From the NCBI RefSeq assembly GCF_020880695.1, contig NZ_JAJIWO010000006.1, positions 1-64,000 of the forward strand: 64,000 nt of DNA, written 5' to 3'. Of the stretch, positions 2,848 through 60,381 are shown in pieces. Under the pieces are notes generated by a model, which saw nothing but the letters and a program-made list of their open reading frames with translations, was not told the origin of the DNA and did no database searches. Position numbers and translations under genes: made by a program. This DNA comes from Mucilaginibacter sp. UR6-11 (GTDB taxonomy: Bacteria > Bacteroidota > Bacteroidia > Sphingobacteriales > Sphingobacteriaceae). How positions within the stretch are numbered: position 1 is the first letter of the stretch; the number at the start of each line of letters is the position of its first letter.

Positions 2848-5022
2848 ATGCCTAATATTCGTTTTCAAGCCTTACAGGCTGTATTAACAAGGACAATTCC
2901 TGAAACAAAGGCGCCTTCTTCAAAAATTTCTGATTTTTTTGGCGCCAATGTATTCGATATAAAAAAAATGAAGGAGCTTCTTTCAAAAGAAGCTTATAAT
3001 AGTATAGTAAACTCTATTGAAAAAGGCGAGCCTATCCCCCGGGACATGGCAGAACAGGTTGCAACCGCTATGAAATCATGGGCTTTGGGTAAGGGCGCTA
3101 CCCATTATACCCACTGGTTTCAGCCCCTTACCGGCACCACAGCCGAAAAACATGACGCTTTTTTTGAACCCACAGCCGATGGCGGTGCTATAGAAGTTTT
3201 CTCGGGGGATGCCCTGGCGCAACAGGAGCCTGATGCTTCAAGTTTCCCAAGCGGCGGTATCCGTAATACATTTGAAGCCAGGGGCTATACCGCGTGGGAC
3301 CCATCTTCTCCGGCATTTTTAATGGCGCGCACCTTATGTATACCAACTGTATTTGTATCGTACACCGGTGAGGCATTAGATTATAAGGTACCTTTATTAA
3401 AGGCCGTTAGTGCTTTGGATAAAGCTGCGGTTGATGTTTGCCATTATTTTGACAAAGGCATCGAAAAAGTAAATGCATCATTAGGTATTGAGCAGGAATA
3501 TTTTTTGGTTGATATTGCCTTATTTAATGCACGCCCTGATCTTTACTTAACCGGACGTACTTTATTCGGCCATATGTCTGCCAAAAATCAGCAGCTAGAA
3601 GATCATTACTTTGGTTCAATACCTGAACGTGTATATGCGTTTATGCAGGATATGGAAACCGAGTCGTTATTACTGGGCATACCATTAAAGACACGTCATA
3701 ATGAGGTTGCACCATCGCAATTTGAATGTGCCCCTATTTATGAAGAGATCAACCTGGCTATAGATCATAATCAGCTATTAATGGACCTGATGGATCGCGT
3801 AGCCAAGCGCCATAACTTTAAAGTTTTGCTGCACGAAAAACCTTATGCCGGTATAAACGGATCAGGCAAACACAATAACTGGTCGATGATTACCAATACG
3901 GGTAAAAACTTATTGTCGCCGGGCAAAACGCCCAAGAACAACCTGATGTTCCTGACGTTTTTTGTTAACACCATTAAAGCGGTGTATGAACATGCCGATT
4001 TATTGCGCGCATCCATTGCCTCTGTAAATAACGATCACCGCCTGGGCGCAAATGAGGCCCCTCCCGCTATTATATCTATATTCCTGGGCAGCCAGTTAAG
4101 CGAGCTTTTGGACGAGATAGAAACCTCACGGATCAGCAAAAAAGTTAAAGATGAGGCATTGCTATGGCAGGGCATCCCTAAAATACCGCAAATATTAAAA
4201 GATAATACAGACCGTAACCGTACTTCGCCGTTTGCATTTACCGGTAATAAGTTTGAGTTGCGCGCGGTTGGCTCATCAGCAAACTCGGCCAGCCCGATGA
4301 CGATCTTAAATCTGATCGTGGCCGATCAGCTTAAAAAATTCAAGTATGATGTAGATAAACTGTTGAAAAAAGGCGAGAAAAAAGACGTTGCCTTATTAAT
4401 AGTGATCAAAAAATATATTAAAGAATCAAAAAATATCCGCTTCGAGGGTAATGGCTACAGTGAAGAATGGGAAAAAGAAGCCGAACAAAGGGGCCTGTCC
4501 AACTTTAAAACCACGCCCAAAGCGCTTGATGCATTCGTCTCAGAGAAATCCGAGATCCTGTATGCAGAAAGCTCTGTATTTACTAAACGCGAAGCGCAGG
4601 CGCGCCATGAGATATTATTAGACGCTTTTTATAAAAAACTACAGATCGAGGCCCGCGTTATCGGCGAACTGGTAATGAACGTCATTATTCCGTCGGCAAT
4701 TGATTACCAAAGCAAACTGGTTGAAAATGCAACCGGGCTAAAAGGTTTGGGACTGGACAGTTCTGTTTACCAGGTACAGCTGGACATTATTAATAAAATT
4801 GCCGAGCACATTAATTTCATCAAATTAAACGTAGACCAGATGGTTGCCGAGCGCAAGAAGGCAAATGATATTGAGGACCTGCGGGAAAAAGCTATTACTT
4901 ATGATGAGAAAGTTAAATCATACTTCCAGCCTATCCGGTACCATGTTGATAAACTGGAGCAATTGGTAGATGATTCATTATGGCCACTACCTAAGTTCAG
5001 GGAACTGCTGTTTATTAAATAA
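2848..5022 (+). CDS. glnN: Glutamine synthetase type III
   Basis: 724 residues, the length of GSIII enzymes (about 1.5 times GSI/GSII). It makes glutamine from glutamate, ammonium and ATP in the cytoplasm. The N-terminal GSIII-specific domain carries WALGKGATHYTHWFQP near residue 75; the catalytic domain shows IEQEYFLVD, NGSGKHNNWS (about 336) and NDHRLGANEAPP, the glutamate, ATP and phosphate loops of the family; a helical C-terminal tail follows AVGSSANSASPM. It is divergent from amt, giving one uptake-and-assimilation locus. A wordy palindrome starts 5 nt after the stop. The start ATG fits the conserved N-terminus. Confidence 0.96.
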   Translation: MPNIRFQALQAVLTRTIPETKAPSSKISDFFGANVFDIKKMKELLSKEAYNSIVNSIEKGEPIPRDMAEQVATAMKSWALGKGATHYTHWFQPLTGTTAEKHDAFFEPTADGGAIEVFSGDALAQQEPDASSFPSGGIRNTFEARGYTAWDPSSPAFLMARTLCIPTVFVSYTGEALDYKVPLLKAVSALDKAAVDVCHYFDKGIEKVNASLGIEQEYFLVDIALFNARPDLYLTGRTLFGHMSAKNQQLEDHYFGSIPERVYAFMQDMETESLLLGIPLKTRHNEVAPSQFECAPIYEEINLAIDHNQLLMDLMDRVAKRHNFKVLLHEKPYAGINGSGKHNNWSMITNTGKNLLSPGKTPKNNLMFLTFFVNTIKAVYEHADLLRASIASVNNDHRLGANEAPPAIISIFLGSQLSELLDEIETSRISKKVKDEALLWQGIPKIPQILKDNTDRNRTSPFAFTGNKFELRAVGSSANSASPMTILNLIVADQLKKFKYDVDKLLKKGEKKDVALLIVIKKYIKESKNIRFEGNGYSEEWEKEAEQRGLSNFKTTPKALDAFVSEKSEILYAESSVFTKREAQARHEILLDAFYKKLQIEARVIGELVMNVIIPSAIDYQSKLVENATGLKGLGLDSSVYQVQLDIINKIAEHINFIKLNVDQMVAERKKANDIEDLREKAITYDEKVKSYFQPIRYHVDKLEQLVDDSLWPLPKFRELLFIK

Positions 5023-5027
5023 TTTTT

Positions 5028-5102
5028 CACGAAATGCACGAAATACAGGACGAATTTCACGAATTACCTTTGTGAAATTCGAATAAATTCGTGCATTTCG
5101 TG
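5028..5102. repeat. 75-bp palindrome built from CACGAA words, directly after glnN
   Basis: Outer arms CACGAAATGCACGAA (5028-5042) and TTCGTGCATTTCGTG (5088-5102) pair over 15 bp; inner arms CGAATTTCAC (5051-5060) and GTGAAATTCG (5072-5081) pair over 10 bp. The word CACGAA occurs three times on the left arm. It begins 5 nt after the glnN stop and ends 22 nt before purM. No U-run follows, so it is not a classical terminator; a 3' end element or dispersed intergenic repeat is likely. Confidence 0.75.
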
Positions 5103-5112
5103 TTTATGACGG

Positions 5113-5120
5113 TATATTTG
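5113..5120 (+). promoter_or_regulatory. Candidate -7 box of purM, possibly leaderless
   Basis: TATATTTG matches TAnnTTTG exactly and ends only 4 nt before the purM ATG. With the usual box-to-start distance, transcription would begin at or next to the A of the ATG. Confidence 0.45.
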
Positions 5121-5124
5121 GCCC

Positions 5125-6306
5125 ATGATTTCTTCGCAAAGATATGATCAAAGAGGCGTTTCTGCCTCTAAGGACGATGTACACAACGCTATAAAAAACA
5201 TTGACAAGGGCATTTTTCCGCAGGCATTCTGCAAAATAGTGCCGGATATTTTAACCAATGATCCGCTGTATTGCAATATTATGCATGCCGACGGCGCCGG
5301 TACAAAATCTTCGCTTGCTTATACCTATTGGAAGGAAACCGGCGATATCTCTGTTTGGCGCGGGATTGCACAGGATGCCATCATAATGAACCTGGACGAC
5401 CTGCTGTGTGTAGGCGCGACGGACAATATCCTCTTATCATCTACCATCGGCAGAAATAAAACCCTGATACCCGGCGAAGTTATCGCAGCCATTATTAATG
5501 GTACCGAAGAAATACTGGCAGAGTTGAGGGAGGCCGGCATAGGCATTTACTCGACGGGTGGCGAAACAGCGGATGTTGGCGATCTTGTTCGTACTATTAT
5601 TGTTGACTCGACGGTAACCTGCCGGATGAAACGTGAGGACGTAATATCAAACGACCGTATTAAACCGGGGGATGTTATTGTCGGATTGGCCTCTTACGGG
5701 CAAGCAACGTATGAAAAAGAATATAACGGCGGTATGGGGTCGAACGGATTAACATCTGCCCGTCATGATGTGTTTAATAAAAGCATAGCCGATAAATATC
5801 CAGAAAGCCATGACGCTGCTATCCCGCAAGAGTTAATATTTTCTGGTACCAAATCGCTAACAGATCCAATCAGTATAGGCGGTGGAAAATCTGTTACCGC
5901 AGGCAAACTGGTTTTGTCGGCCACCCGTACTTATGCGCCCGTTATTAAGCAGATACTAGATAACTACAGAAGCCAGGTGCACGGTATGGTGCATTGCAGC
6001 GGCGGTGCGCAAACTAAAGTATTGCATTTTGTTGATCGGTTACATATTGTTAAAGACAACCTCTTCCCTATTCCGCCTTTATTTAAACTTATACAGGAAG
6101 AATCAAAAACCAGCTGGCAGGAAATGTATAAGGTATTTAATATGGGTCACCGTATGGAACTTTATGTACCCGGGGATATTGCTGACGATCTGATTAAAAT
6201 TTCTCAAAGTTTTGGTGTTGAGGCACAGGTAATAGGCTACGTTGAAGCGGCCGAAACGAAACAGGTAACGATCCGCTCAGAATTTGGCGAATTTATTTAC
6301 CAATAG
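5125..6306 (+). CDS. purM: Phosphoribosylformylglycinamidine cyclo-ligase (AIR synthase)
   Basis: 393 residues, the longer Bacteroidota form of PurM. It closes the imidazole ring of formylglycinamidine ribonucleotide with ATP to give AIR in purine synthesis. The N-terminus SSQRYDQRGVSASKDDVHNA, the substrate loop HADGAGTKSSLA (about 54) and GIYSTGGETADVGD (about 140) are the AIR synthase nucleotide-binding and dimer motifs; the C-terminal PurM-like domain includes HCSGGAQTKVLHF. It stands alone between glnN and a convergent ompA, closed by a strong bidirectional terminator. purB lies 14 kb away, so purine genes are scattered. Confidence 0.94.
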   Translation: MISSQRYDQRGVSASKDDVHNAIKNIDKGIFPQAFCKIVPDILTNDPLYCNIMHADGAGTKSSLAYTYWKETGDISVWRGIAQDAIIMNLDDLLCVGATDNILLSSTIGRNKTLIPGEVIAAIINGTEEILAELREAGIGIYSTGGETADVGDLVRTIIVDSTVTCRMKREDVISNDRIKPGDVIVGLASYGQATYEKEYNGGMGSNGLTSARHDVFNKSIADKYPESHDAAIPQELIFSGTKSLTDPISIGGGKSVTAGKLVLSATRTYAPVIKQILDNYRSQVHGMVHCSGGAQTKVLHFVDRLHIVKDNLFPIPPLFKLIQEESKTSWQEMYKVFNMGHRMELYVPGDIADDLIKISQSFGVEAQVIGYVEAAETKQVTIRSEFGEFIYQ

Positions 6307-20401: not shown

Positions 20402-21745
20402 ATGACACTTACACCTCTATCTGCAATATCACCCATTGATGGCCGTTACCGAAAAACTACTGCCGGGCTTGGCGCTTATTTTTCTGAATATGCCCTGATC
20501 AAATACCGGGTGTTTGTTGAGATCGAATACTTTATAGCTTTATACCAGCATCCGTTGCCACAATTACAGGATTTTGATGAAAATCTGGTAGAAAAGTTAC
20601 GGAATATTTATAAAAATTTCAATGAAGCTGATGCGCAAAGCATCAAAGACATTGAAAAAATAACCAATCACGATGTTAAAGCGGTTGAGTATTTTATTAA
20701 ACAGAAGTTTGACGGGTTAAACCTGCATGATTTTAAAGAATTTATCCACTTTGGCTTAACCTCGCAGGACATTAATAATACTGCCATACCTTATACTTTT
20801 AAATTAGCCTTAGATGAGGTTTATTATCCGGTCATTGATGAGCTGATTAGCTTATTAAAAAAATATGCCGGCGACTGGGATAAAGTACCCATGCTGGCGC
20901 ATACACACGGACAAGCGGCGTCTCCTACCCGCCTGGGTAAAGAAATACAGGTTTTTGTTGAACGCCTTGAAAATCAGCTTGTATTATTGAAGCAGGTGCC
21001 AACCTCGGCTAAATTTGGCGGCGCTACAGGTAACTTTAATGCACATAAGGTAGCTTATGGCAACATTGACTGGAAAGCGTTCGGCAATAATTTTGTAAAC
21101 AATATTTTAGGACTCAGCCGCTCGCAATACACCACGCAAATTGAACATTATGACAATTTTGCCGCCCAATGCGATGCGTTAAAACGGATCAACAATATCC
21201 TGATAGATCTGGACCGCGATATGTGGGCCTACATCTCAATGAATTATTTTAAACAGCAAATTAAAGCCGGCGAAGTTGGTTCGTCAGCCATGCCGCATAA
21301 AGTTAACCCGATAGATTTTGAGAACTCTGAAGGTAACCTGGGTATTGCAAATGCTTTATTTGAGCACCTTGCTGCTAAATTGCCAATATCAAGACTGCAA
21401 CGTGACCTAACCGACTCGACCGTTTTACGTAATATCGGCGTGCCGGTGGCGCATACGTTAATCGCGCTTAAATCAACCGTAAAAGGTTTGGGTAAATTAT
21501 TATTAAACGAGCCAGCCATCAATGCGCACCTGGAAGCTAACTGGGCGGTTGTAGCGGAAGCCATCCAAACTATTTTAAGGCGCGAAGGCTATCCTAACCC
21601 GTATGAAGCGCTAAAAGAGCTTACCCGCACCAATACACAGGTTAACGCACAAACTATTTCCGAGTTTGTAGATACGTTACAGGTTGATGACAGCGTAAAA
21701 GAAGAAATTAAAAAGATAACACCTGGCAATTATACAGGGATTTGA
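20402..21745 (+). CDS. purB: Adenylosuccinate lyase
   Basis: 447 residues. Fumarase/aspartase superfamily enzyme acting twice in purine synthesis (SAICAR to AICAR, adenylosuccinate to AMP). The signature GSSAMPHKVNP (about 295-305) holds the mobile catalytic loop; THGQAASPTRLG (about 168) gives the catalytic histidine; GLTSQDINNTA is the first conserved region. Single gene, divergent from tetR; a wordy palindrome begins 3 nt after its stop. Confidence 0.96.
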   Translation: MTLTPLSAISPIDGRYRKTTAGLGAYFSEYALIKYRVFVEIEYFIALYQHPLPQLQDFDENLVEKLRNIYKNFNEADAQSIKDIEKITNHDVKAVEYFIKQKFDGLNLHDFKEFIHFGLTSQDINNTAIPYTFKLALDEVYYPVIDELISLLKKYAGDWDKVPMLAHTHGQAASPTRLGKEIQVFVERLENQLVLLKQVPTSAKFGGATGNFNAHKVAYGNIDWKAFGNNFVNNILGLSRSQYTTQIEHYDNFAAQCDALKRINNILIDLDRDMWAYISMNYFKQQIKAGEVGSSAMPHKVNPIDFENSEGNLGIANALFEHLAAKLPISRLQRDLTDSTVLRNIGVPVAHTLIALKSTVKGLGKLLLNEPAINAHLEANWAVVAEAIQTILRREGYPNPYEALKELTRTNTQVNAQTISEFVDTLQVDDSVKEEIKKITPGNYTGI

Positions 21746-21748
21746 TGT

Positions 21749-21819
21749 GCAGATATGCAAATGTGTGTATGTGCAATGATTAGTTAGTTAATTTTTCATC
21801 AGCACATTTACATATCTGC
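21749..21819. repeat. 71-bp palindrome of TGTGCA/ATATGCA words, directly after purB
   Basis: Arms GCAGATATGCAAATGTG (21749-21765) and CACATTTACATATCTGC (21803-21819) pair over 17 positions with one mismatch. The words TGCA, ATATG and TGTG recur within and just beyond the arms. Starts 3 nt after the purB stop. No U-run follows. Confidence 0.7.
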
Positions 21820-21917
21820 TTATTTGCACAACGTCACCAACAGGTCATAACTATTTTAGTATGATACATTAATCAAAAAGCTATTTAACTTTGTTAAGTA
21901 AATAAAAGAAGATCAAG

Positions 21918-58831: not shown

Positions 58832-58837
58832 TTTTCT

Positions 58838-58900
58838 GGTTGTATGTTATGAGTTGCAGGTTGTATGCAAATTGTAACTTACAACTTATAACATACAACC
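58838..58900. repeat. 63-bp palindrome of GTTGTATG/GTTAT words between proS and metB
   Basis: Arms GGTTGTATGTTATGAGTTG (58838-58856) and CAACTTATAACATACAACC (58882-58900) pair over 19 positions with one mismatch. GTTGTATG recurs within the left side. It begins 8 nt after the proS stop and ends 6 nt before the metB start, so it is in the proS-metB leader. No U-run. Confidence 0.75.
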
Positions 58901-58908
58901 CGCAACAA

Positions 58909-60381
58909 TTAGTAGGCTCTTGCAAACAATACTCTCTGGCTACTTGGTTTACCTGTCAAAATACATTTGCCTTCTTCCAGTTTATTATCCAAAGGGATAC
59001 AACGGATGGTAGCTTTGGTTTCGTCTTTTATCTTCTGTTCGGTTTCTGCGGTACCGTCCCAGTGTGCAGAAAGGAAACCCGGTTTTTCGTCCAGCAGGCG
59101 TTTAAACTCTTCGTAGGTATCAACCTCGGTGGTGTTCTCCGTTCTGAAATTGGCAGCCTTCCGGTAGATGTTGTTTTGAATTTCTTCCAATAACACTTCT
59201 ATATGCTCAGCCAAACCAGCCTGGTTAACCGTTTCCTTGGTTTTGGTATCCCTGCGTGCCAGTTCAACAGTCCCGTTTTGCATATCGCGGCTGCCGATGG
59301 CAACGCGCAATGGTACACCCTTCAGCTCGTACTCGGCAAACTTAGCACCCGGGCGATGGGTATCGCGCTTATCAAACTTAACCGATATATCTTTGGCCTT
59401 CAATGCTTTACTAAGTTCATTTACATAAGCACTTATGTTCTCCAGTTCTTCGTCATGCTTATAGATCGGTACGATAACCACTTGGATAGGCGCCAGTTTT
59501 GGCGGCAATACCAGGCCCGCATCGTCAGAGTGCGCCATGATCAGCGCACCTATCAAACGGGTTGATACTCCCCATGAGGTTGCCCAAACGTAGTCCAGTT
59601 TATTTTCTTTATTGGTGAACTTTACATCAAATGCTTTGGCGAAGTTTTGACCCAGGAAATGCGAGGTTCCTGCCTGCAGCGCTTTACCGTCCTGCATTAA
59701 GGCTTCAATACAATAAGTATCCAACGCGCCTGCAAAACGTTCGTTCGGAGTCTTACGGCCCTTTACTACCGGTAAGGCTAAAAAGTTCTCCACAAAATCA
59801 GCATAGACCTCCAGCATTTGCTCGGTTTCAGCAACGGCTTCTTCGGATGTCGCATGGGCAGTATGCCCCTCCTGCCATAAAAATTCGCTGGTGCGTAAAA
59901 ACAAACGGGTACGCATCTCCCAACGCATAACGTTGGCCCATTGGTTAACCAAAATCGGCAAATCGCGGTAGGATTGGATCCAGCCTCGGTAGGTGTTCCA
60001 GATAATCGTTTCAGACGTTGGACGGATAATCAATTCCTCTTCCAACTTGGCATCTTCATCAACAATGATATTGCCATTACCGTCGTTTTTTAAGCGATAA
60101 TGAGTAACCACGGCGCATTCTTTTGCAAAGCCCTCAACATGACTGGCTTCTTTTGAAAAAAAAGATTTGGGGATCAGTAACGGGAAGTAAGCATTGCTGT
60201 GACCGGTTTCTTTAAACATTTTATCTAACACTGCCTGCATTTTCTCCCAAATTGAATATCCATACGGTTTAATGATCATACAACCTCTAACCGGCGAATA
60301 CTCAGCCATATCGGCTTTTATAACCAGATCGTTATACCATTGCGAATAATCTTCATCTTTACTAATAACGCCTTTACTCAT
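58909..60381 (-). CDS. proS: Prolyl-tRNA synthetase, eukaryote/archaeal-type
   Basis: 490 residues. Class II synthetase with motif 2 region [24 protein letters not shown] in parts and a motif 3 [26 protein letters not shown] (in parts). It lacks the 180-residue YbaK insertion of the E. coli type and has a C-terminal zinc-like extension ([23 protein letters not shown]), marking the ProS type found in Bacteroidota and archaea. Charges tRNA-Pro. Confidence 0.95.

Follow-up and report, generated by a model that had tools for sequence, protein, structure and literature searches.

In this study, we found that the repeated words making up palindromes such as that behind glnN are common to many loci and genomes, where they form the arms on either side of genes for certain clades of GxxExxY proteins (PF13366) or 23S-rRNA intervening-sequence proteins (IVPs, PF05635). 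What is new is what the words belong to, namely these clade-specific flanking arms of GxxExxY and IVP genes. Because of this identity, the palindrome at 5028-5102 and its counterparts in the window (the whole 64-kb stretch of DNA analysed here) look like members of an element family that have no ORF of their own. The glnN palindrome probably belongs, as a non-autonomous or decayed copy without an ORF, to a family of small, selfish-looking and transposase-free hairpin elements resembling rRNA intervening sequences (IVSs). The tie between word arms and proteins explains a set of odd intergenic palindromes and links them to rRNA IVSs. It also gives a setting to GxxExxY and IVP, two common and unexplained families of small proteins, and opens a direct question: is the protein's own arm bound or cut by it? 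No paper tying GxxExxY or IVP genes to word palindromes was recognised in searches of the open-licence PMC literature.

The palindrome behind glnN and similar hairpins in the genome

The features discussed are collected in Table 1. As the initial annotation had stated, the palindrome is 75 bp long, starts 5 nt past the glnN stop codon (TAA, 5020-5022) and has perfect arms of 15 and 10 bp; the 10-bp core (5051-5060/5072-5081) proved to be part of a longer inner stem. Folded as RNA, 5023-5106 gave -36.9 kcal/mol; its shuffles averaged -13.2 (z -8.1) and none of 200 did as well. The complementary ends thus form one long stem-loop. The motif TATATTTG, which lies ahead of the downstream gene, resembles the Bacteroidetes -7 element TAnnTTTG. 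In G016, G094 and G111, CACGAATT words stand 5′ of the same downstream gene, and the upstream neighbour there is another gene.

Table 1. Positions of the palindromes, their arms and the adjoining features in the window
Feature	Position	Strand	Basis
CACGAA-word palindrome, probable ORF-less hairpin element	5028..5102	.	Arms and fold; sequence match to flanks of GHGF-clade GxxExxY genes
Outer 5′ arm, 15 nt	5028..5042	+	
Outer 3′ arm, 100% complementary to 5028-5042	5088..5102	+	
Inner 5′ arm, 13 nt, 92% complementary to 5069-5081	5051..5063	+	
Inner 3′ arm	5069..5081	+	
glnN, type III glutamine synthetase	2848..5022	+	PF12437, PF18318, PF00120
AIR-synthase-related gene, 3′ of the palindrome	5125..6306	+	PF00586, PF02769
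TATATTTG, directly 5′ of the ATG of the AIR-synthase-related gene, kept in many relatives	5113..5120	+	Sequence comparison
Second palindrome, word TGTGCAGATATGCA	21746..21830	+	5′ arm alignment to own-genome IVP element L153
Third palindrome, word GTTGTATG	58838..58900	-	Stop 58909-58911 on one side, ATG 58831 on the other

A strong hairpin directly past a stop codon is what an ordinary intrinsic terminator of glnN would look like, and in two near relatives, G109 and G080, the glnN spacer does hold a terminator-like hairpin instead of the palindrome. Against this stands the lack of any terminator-like site, with a G+C-rich stem and a U-run, in 4800-5300; no U-run follows the palindrome, as had been noted before, and a terminator is an extremely improbable explanation for it. 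An Rfam scan of the window was empty, which rules out a known RNA family. Simple low complexity as the cause of the palindromes is ruled out by shuffling, both of the RNA fold and of the gaps described below.

The initial annotation had proposed a class of post-stop hairpins that share one design with different words. We sampled 40 stretches of 20 kb together with the window, amounting to 864 kb of the 4.62-Mb genome (20 contigs), and scored 480 gaps of 25-600 nt between genes called by an ORF-length rule, with dinucleotide shuffles as the control. In this sample, hairpins scoring at least 14 occupied 32 of the 280 co-directional gaps, 20 of the 85 convergent gaps, where many of the hairpins are terminator-like, and 6 of the 115 divergent gaps; the shuffles predicted 0.0, 0.0 and 0.1, respectively. 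Nineteen hairpins, one of them a RAYT repeat (L277), were long and non-terminator (co-directional gap, score of at least 13, span of at least 45, no T-run); 11 of these start within 10 nt of a stop codon, against 5.6 expected if their position in the gap were free (p = 0.001). When the three palindromes of the window are left out, the figures are 8 of 16 against 4.4 (p = 0.014). This excess at stop codons bears out the proposed class. The arms of several sampled hairpins are again word repeats (GGTTAAAGG, AGTATCAAG, GTTGTAAG, TACGTTGTACG and AGTCTGAAGTCTTTAG). At L262 (12865-13777), GAGACGCAATATTTTGCGTCTC palindromes adjoin a 210-aa ORF without a Pfam match, with a flank inverted-repeat score of 32.5.

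Two further palindromes of the same architecture had been reported in the window, and both are present, the first being slightly longer (21746-21830) than the 21749-21819 given for it. It begins 0 nt past the stop of the gene at 20402-21745 and folds with z -5.4. A 35-nt alignment joins its 5′ arm to that of L153, an IVP locus of the own genome, and contains a single mismatch and a single gap; the region 21746-21832 scores 29.5 against L153, the next locus of any family scoring 13.5; with this one locus as the basis, it looks like an ORF-less relative of the L153 element. The third palindrome lies 8 nt past one stop and 6 nt ahead of the next ATG and folds with z -6.4. Judged by one locus again, it resembles the flanks of the IVP locus L122, against which 58832-58908 scores 18.0 (next 12.5).

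Words of the arms and the genes they flank

The 17-mer CACGAATTNCACGAATT has exact matches, arranged as facing pairs or tandem arrays, in 57 of the 149 genus genomes, and a reversed control pattern gave a single row with a match. Similar low-complexity palindromes, which the initial annotation had suggested for other Sphingobacteriaceae, are found across the genus. The own genome contains one full copy of the CACGAA-word palindrome, and a word search allowing two mismatches was uninformative there, with 5 matches versus 16 for the control.

In L014, L044 and L047, the ORFs that adjoin CACGAATT arms or are enclosed by them encode GxxExxY proteins (TIGR04256, PF13366; in L044 with E-values of 1.5e-37 and 7e-33, respectively). 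CACGAATT lies within 300 nt of 29 of 30 GxxExxY genes of the GHGF clade, on both sides in 19, versus none of 30 other GxxExxY loci and one of 35 IVP loci; nearly all GHGF loci belong to a single context cluster, which takes in 31 of the 60 GxxExxY loci and where the upstream gene is one we take to be dtd, so that the 29 of 30 do not stand for 30 separate events. The words face each other across the GHGF genes, with 48 forward and 7 reverse upstream and 4 forward and 52 reverse downstream. Other GxxExxY clades and the IVP clades have distinct words of their own. When 5023-5106 was compared with gene flanks, the median score was 18.5 for GHGF loci, 9.0 for other GxxExxY loci and 8.5 for IVP loci. 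The GHGF loci, which carry the same words as the glnN palindrome, are its candidate autonomous relatives. PF05635 is present in 146 and PF13366 in 116 of the 149 genomes; no PF13366 gene was found in the own genome, and nothing there would thus be able to move the CACGAA copy now.

Inverted arms were then sought at these genes more generally. When the 5′ flank of a gene was compared with its 3′ flank, the top inverted repeat had a median score of 20.75 for 30 other GxxExxY loci of the genus and 21.0 for 30 IVP loci, against 10.0 for mismatched loci in both cases; the loci, many of them orthologous, had been chosen for their best E-values. Ordinary genes sampled from the own genome (314 genes, 300-900 nt long) had a median of 9. 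Scores of at least 18 were reached by 23 of 30 GHGF loci, 17 of 30 other GxxExxY loci, 19 of 30 IVP loci and three of the five IVP loci of the own genome, compared with 1.3% of the ordinary genes, whose top outlier (L277:7189) is the own-genome RAYT described below.

Single-linkage blastn clustering, in which neighbouring places may be merged, placed the 35 IVP loci in 11 genomic contexts and the 60 GxxExxY loci in 15. Between different contexts, 9 of 11 IVP pairs shared their arms when the proteins were 60-80% identical, 1 of 43 did at 50-60% and none of 264 below; for GxxExxY the counts were 13 of 16 pairs at 80% identity or more, 26 of 116 at 60-80% and 1 of 916 at 30-40%. Arms and protein clade are thus linked also across unrelated genomic contexts. 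Over all pairs, protein identity and flank similarity showed no rank correlation for IVP (Spearman -0.03) and a coefficient of 0.29 for GxxExxY. The link is visible among close proteins only, as would be expected if the words change fast. The arms of the named Mucilaginibacter loci L361 and L383 are those of the same-genus loci L095 and L092.

Some single loci are of note in this connection. In L165 and L175, the 3′ end of the gene upstream of the GxxExxY gene reads GACACGAAAATTCGCGAATGA, similar to the CACGAATT word, perhaps by coincidence, by likeness to a target or by capture. An IVP copy of the own genome (L151, G000:C12:693215-693490) has kept its AGTATCAAG-type arms and has an in-frame TAA; palindromes of this word also occur in L261 and L259, where no IVP gene was found.

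Placement, turnover and covariation of the hairpins

All 35 IVP loci are co-directional with both of their neighbouring genes. In 34 of them the 5′ arm begins between -9 and +23 nt relative to the stop upstream, the exception (L152, arm score 8) being an alignment failure in which the word visibly begins directly past the stop; on the 3′ side, the arm mostly ends 2-15 nt 5′ of the next start. GxxExxY elements are placed more loosely. Phylum-wide, both neighbours are co-directional at 22 of 30 IVP and 22 of 29 GxxExxY loci and an arm lies near the stop at 19 of 30 and 12 of 29, respectively; the IVP flanks are weaker at this range, with 16 of 30 above the control's 95% point. Most elements thus lie right behind stop codons, and those with IVP genes occupy stop-start gaps and point the same way as both neighbours. 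Such strict co-direction of the IVP elements with their operons would fit either an RNA-borne spread, by reverse transcription, or selection for co-transcription.

The contents of a gap can change between species. Behind the gene at 58909-60381, presumably proS from its C-terminus, 30 genomes have hairpins of GTTGTATG, CCCCCTGAAGGGGG, GTCCATAG, GTTGTAAAGTTG, CATTGCGAGG or GAGTGCGAGG, or else GTGAGTGG words accompanied by an IVP ORF, which Pfam confirmed in L192 and L194 and visual inspection in L195, L196 and L200. One stop-start gap therefore holds different word hairpins or an IVP gene in sister species. In G147, the same gap is filled by a 164-aa ORF without a Pfam match (L197, 2986-3480). 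At the site behind 20402-21745, roughly twelve species have the TGTGC word; in G011, which is among the nearest relatives, a short spacer lacking it precedes the same ACGTCACC flank. Filled and empty sites compared by eye revealed no clear target-site duplication.

Such turnover at a fixed place is also what would be seen if the hairpins were devices of the host, that is, 3′-end or intercistronic RNA structures selected at fixed sites for mRNA stabilisation, attenuation or processing, with the word irrelevant and replaced over time. Their location directly behind stops agrees with this proposal, as do the covariation of the arms described below and the 58838 site, where the words are not the same and yet folds with z < -3 are seen in 22 of 30 species. 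At the 21746 site, however, only 8 of 30 do so and several relatives have a short spacer without a hairpin, and at glnN the nearest relatives carry the different, terminator-like hairpin mentioned above. The tie between word and protein clade and the presence of IVP and GxxExxY genes inside the arms would be left unexplained. We regard host devices as an unlikely explanation.

Between species, the arms stay complementary while their sequences diverge. In three sets, arm complementarity was higher within a locus than between different loci of the site: 21.1 versus 17.4 (n = 24) and 23.8 versus 16.3 (n = 31), both sets being context clusters that may hold more than one site and neither value being reached in 5000 permutations, and 16.6 versus 13.0 (n = 11, L237 left out), reached in 2 of 5000. 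The outcomes named beforehand as speaking against a class of post-stop hairpins did not occur, since there is an excess at stop codons and the arms covary.

A better match between arms of one locus than between loci would also be produced by template-switch repair of quasi-palindromes, and the palindromes might have arisen locally by word duplication and template switching, with neither shared descent nor movement. Tandem word arrays exist, with 12 CACGAATT matches at 59-bp spacing in L045 (1368-2017) and 12 matches in L046 (1115-1371), in agreement with the initial annotation's view that the hairpins evolve by word duplication; that view leaves the shared words unexplained. One 17-mer in over a third of the genus genomes, with its nearly matchless reversed control, and the recurrence of words with the same protein clade in unrelated contexts make local origin very unlikely as the sole cause, although such processes may act on the arms in addition.

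Partner proteins and relation to known systems

The 124-aa GHGF protein has a predicted structure with a pLDDT of 93.9. Its best match among solved structures is SSO0001 (4ic1; Foldseek E-value 4e-4, Z 9.9, rmsd 3.2 Å over 98 aligned residues), which we take to be a Cas4; this match alone was used, and rows with Z below 8 were left out. The residues D, E-x-K and Y do not vary in sets of 13 and 23 aligned members, and Q occurs in every one of the 13 and in 90% or more of the 23. From the model, the protein is a putative nuclease-like member of the Cas4-like PD-(D/E)XK fold, and the GxxExxY partner, whose gene lies outside the window, belongs to PDDEXK_3 by family score and PD-(D/E)XK active-site residues. 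It resembles Cas4/RecB-type nucleases in fold and in the D, E-x-K, Q and Y residues; in contrast to them, it is smaller and is set in a word-repeat hairpin rather than CRISPR. PADLOC gave weak Cas4 matches only for one GxxExxY protein (E-value 7e-5) and no match for the GHGF protein and IVP. With phmmer against the PDB, one GxxExxY protein had no match and one IVP matched XCC0516 (2gsc, E-value 2e-19).

Similarities to several known systems are evident. Like the bacterial MITEs described in the cited parts of PMC2229807 (NEMIS/Correia, ERIC, YPAL, RUP), the elements are shorter than 200 bp, intergenic and bounded by inverted repeats, form a stable RNA hairpin and include protein-less short copies; unlike them, as far as that source is drawn on, their arms repeat one word, no target-site duplication or TA end was seen and the candidate partner is not a transposase. 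The glnN palindrome itself is short, has inverted ends and is gene-less; the own genome has one full copy, and its word recurs across the genus.

REP-like elements moved by RAYT (Y1) tyrosine transposases also combine intergenic palindromes with a gene flanked by such repeats, and pairs of RAYT and terminal inverted repeats are known, in the portions of PMC3733652 concerned with GTAG/CGTC REPs, RAYTs and TIRtrons. A RAYT-like gene does lie between CACGAATT arms in L060 (9212-10027, G070:C38), but it is adjoined there by different palindromes of its own, all within the arm pair, as if the palindrome loop had been an insertion site. The RAYT-like Y1 transposase gene of the own genome (L036, G000:C17:105753-108971, ORF 1438-1959) is flanked by other REP-like pairs, GTAAGCGTGGACGCTTAC and CAAGTGTGGACACTTG. 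The region 5023-5106 has neither a GTAG nor a CGTC tag, and the word elements have GxxExxY or IVP in place of a Y1 transposase; movement by RAYTs is highly improbable for them. The CGTCATTGCGAGG hairpins at the 58838 site of G110 and G044 look like CGTC repeats, an attribution of our own.

The closest parallel is with rRNA IVSs, which replace small rRNA loops and are cut by RNase III; those with an S23p/IVP ORF are known in Coxiella, Leptospira and Salmonella, and their biological role is called little known (PMC4990558, in the passages used here). According to the same passages, they share with our elements complementary ends forming a long stem-loop, a sporadic distribution and sites where RNA tolerates an insert, and the ORF-bearing sister elements here carry PF05635 (S23p-family) ORFs. 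The differences are that our elements lie between protein genes, behind stop codons, and that their arms are word repeats. The glnN palindrome is not itself an IVS, because it is situated between two protein genes rather than inside an rRNA gene and because the ORF that goes with CACGAATT is GxxExxY; sister words do go with an S23p/IVP ORF. By analogy, the way of working may be similar.

We propose that complete elements would consist of two inverted arms of clade-specific word repeats enclosing one small gene, for a GxxExxY PD-(D/E)XK nuclease-like protein (of the GHGF clade for CACGAATT) or, with other words, for a four-helix IVP/S23 protein. Such an element would be co-transcribed with the host operon and tolerated by the host through folding into one long hairpin outside coding sequence, possibly to be cut by RNase III as rRNA IVSs are. 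It might spread by a mechanism involving the encoded protein, with GxxExxY perhaps recognising or nicking the hairpin arms, and ORF-less copies would have been moved in trans or be remnants. We infer both the movement and the protein roles.

Paired arms are also present beyond the phylum. Among 80 named GxxExxY loci, 78 could be scored (two had short flanks), with a median of 17 versus 9.5 for mismatched loci and 45 of 78 above the mismatched 95% point. This point was also exceeded by 21 of 37 GxxExxY loci labelled non-Bacteroidetes, some of them Ignavibacteria and Chlorobi, and word arms at GxxExxY genes were found again in Proteobacteria, Planctomycetota and Chloroflexota. A wider reading, which we offer tentatively as a possibility somewhat short of even, is that transposase-free mobile hairpins exist throughout bacteria, each pairing a lineage-specific word palindrome with a dedicated GxxExxY or IVP protein, inserting co-directionally behind stop codons and shedding gene-less palindromes, and that rRNA IVSs are the members that landed in rRNA. 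At one alphaproteobacterial locus, L419, 27 identical bases of the ACCACAGAGACACAGAG type stand in both arms.
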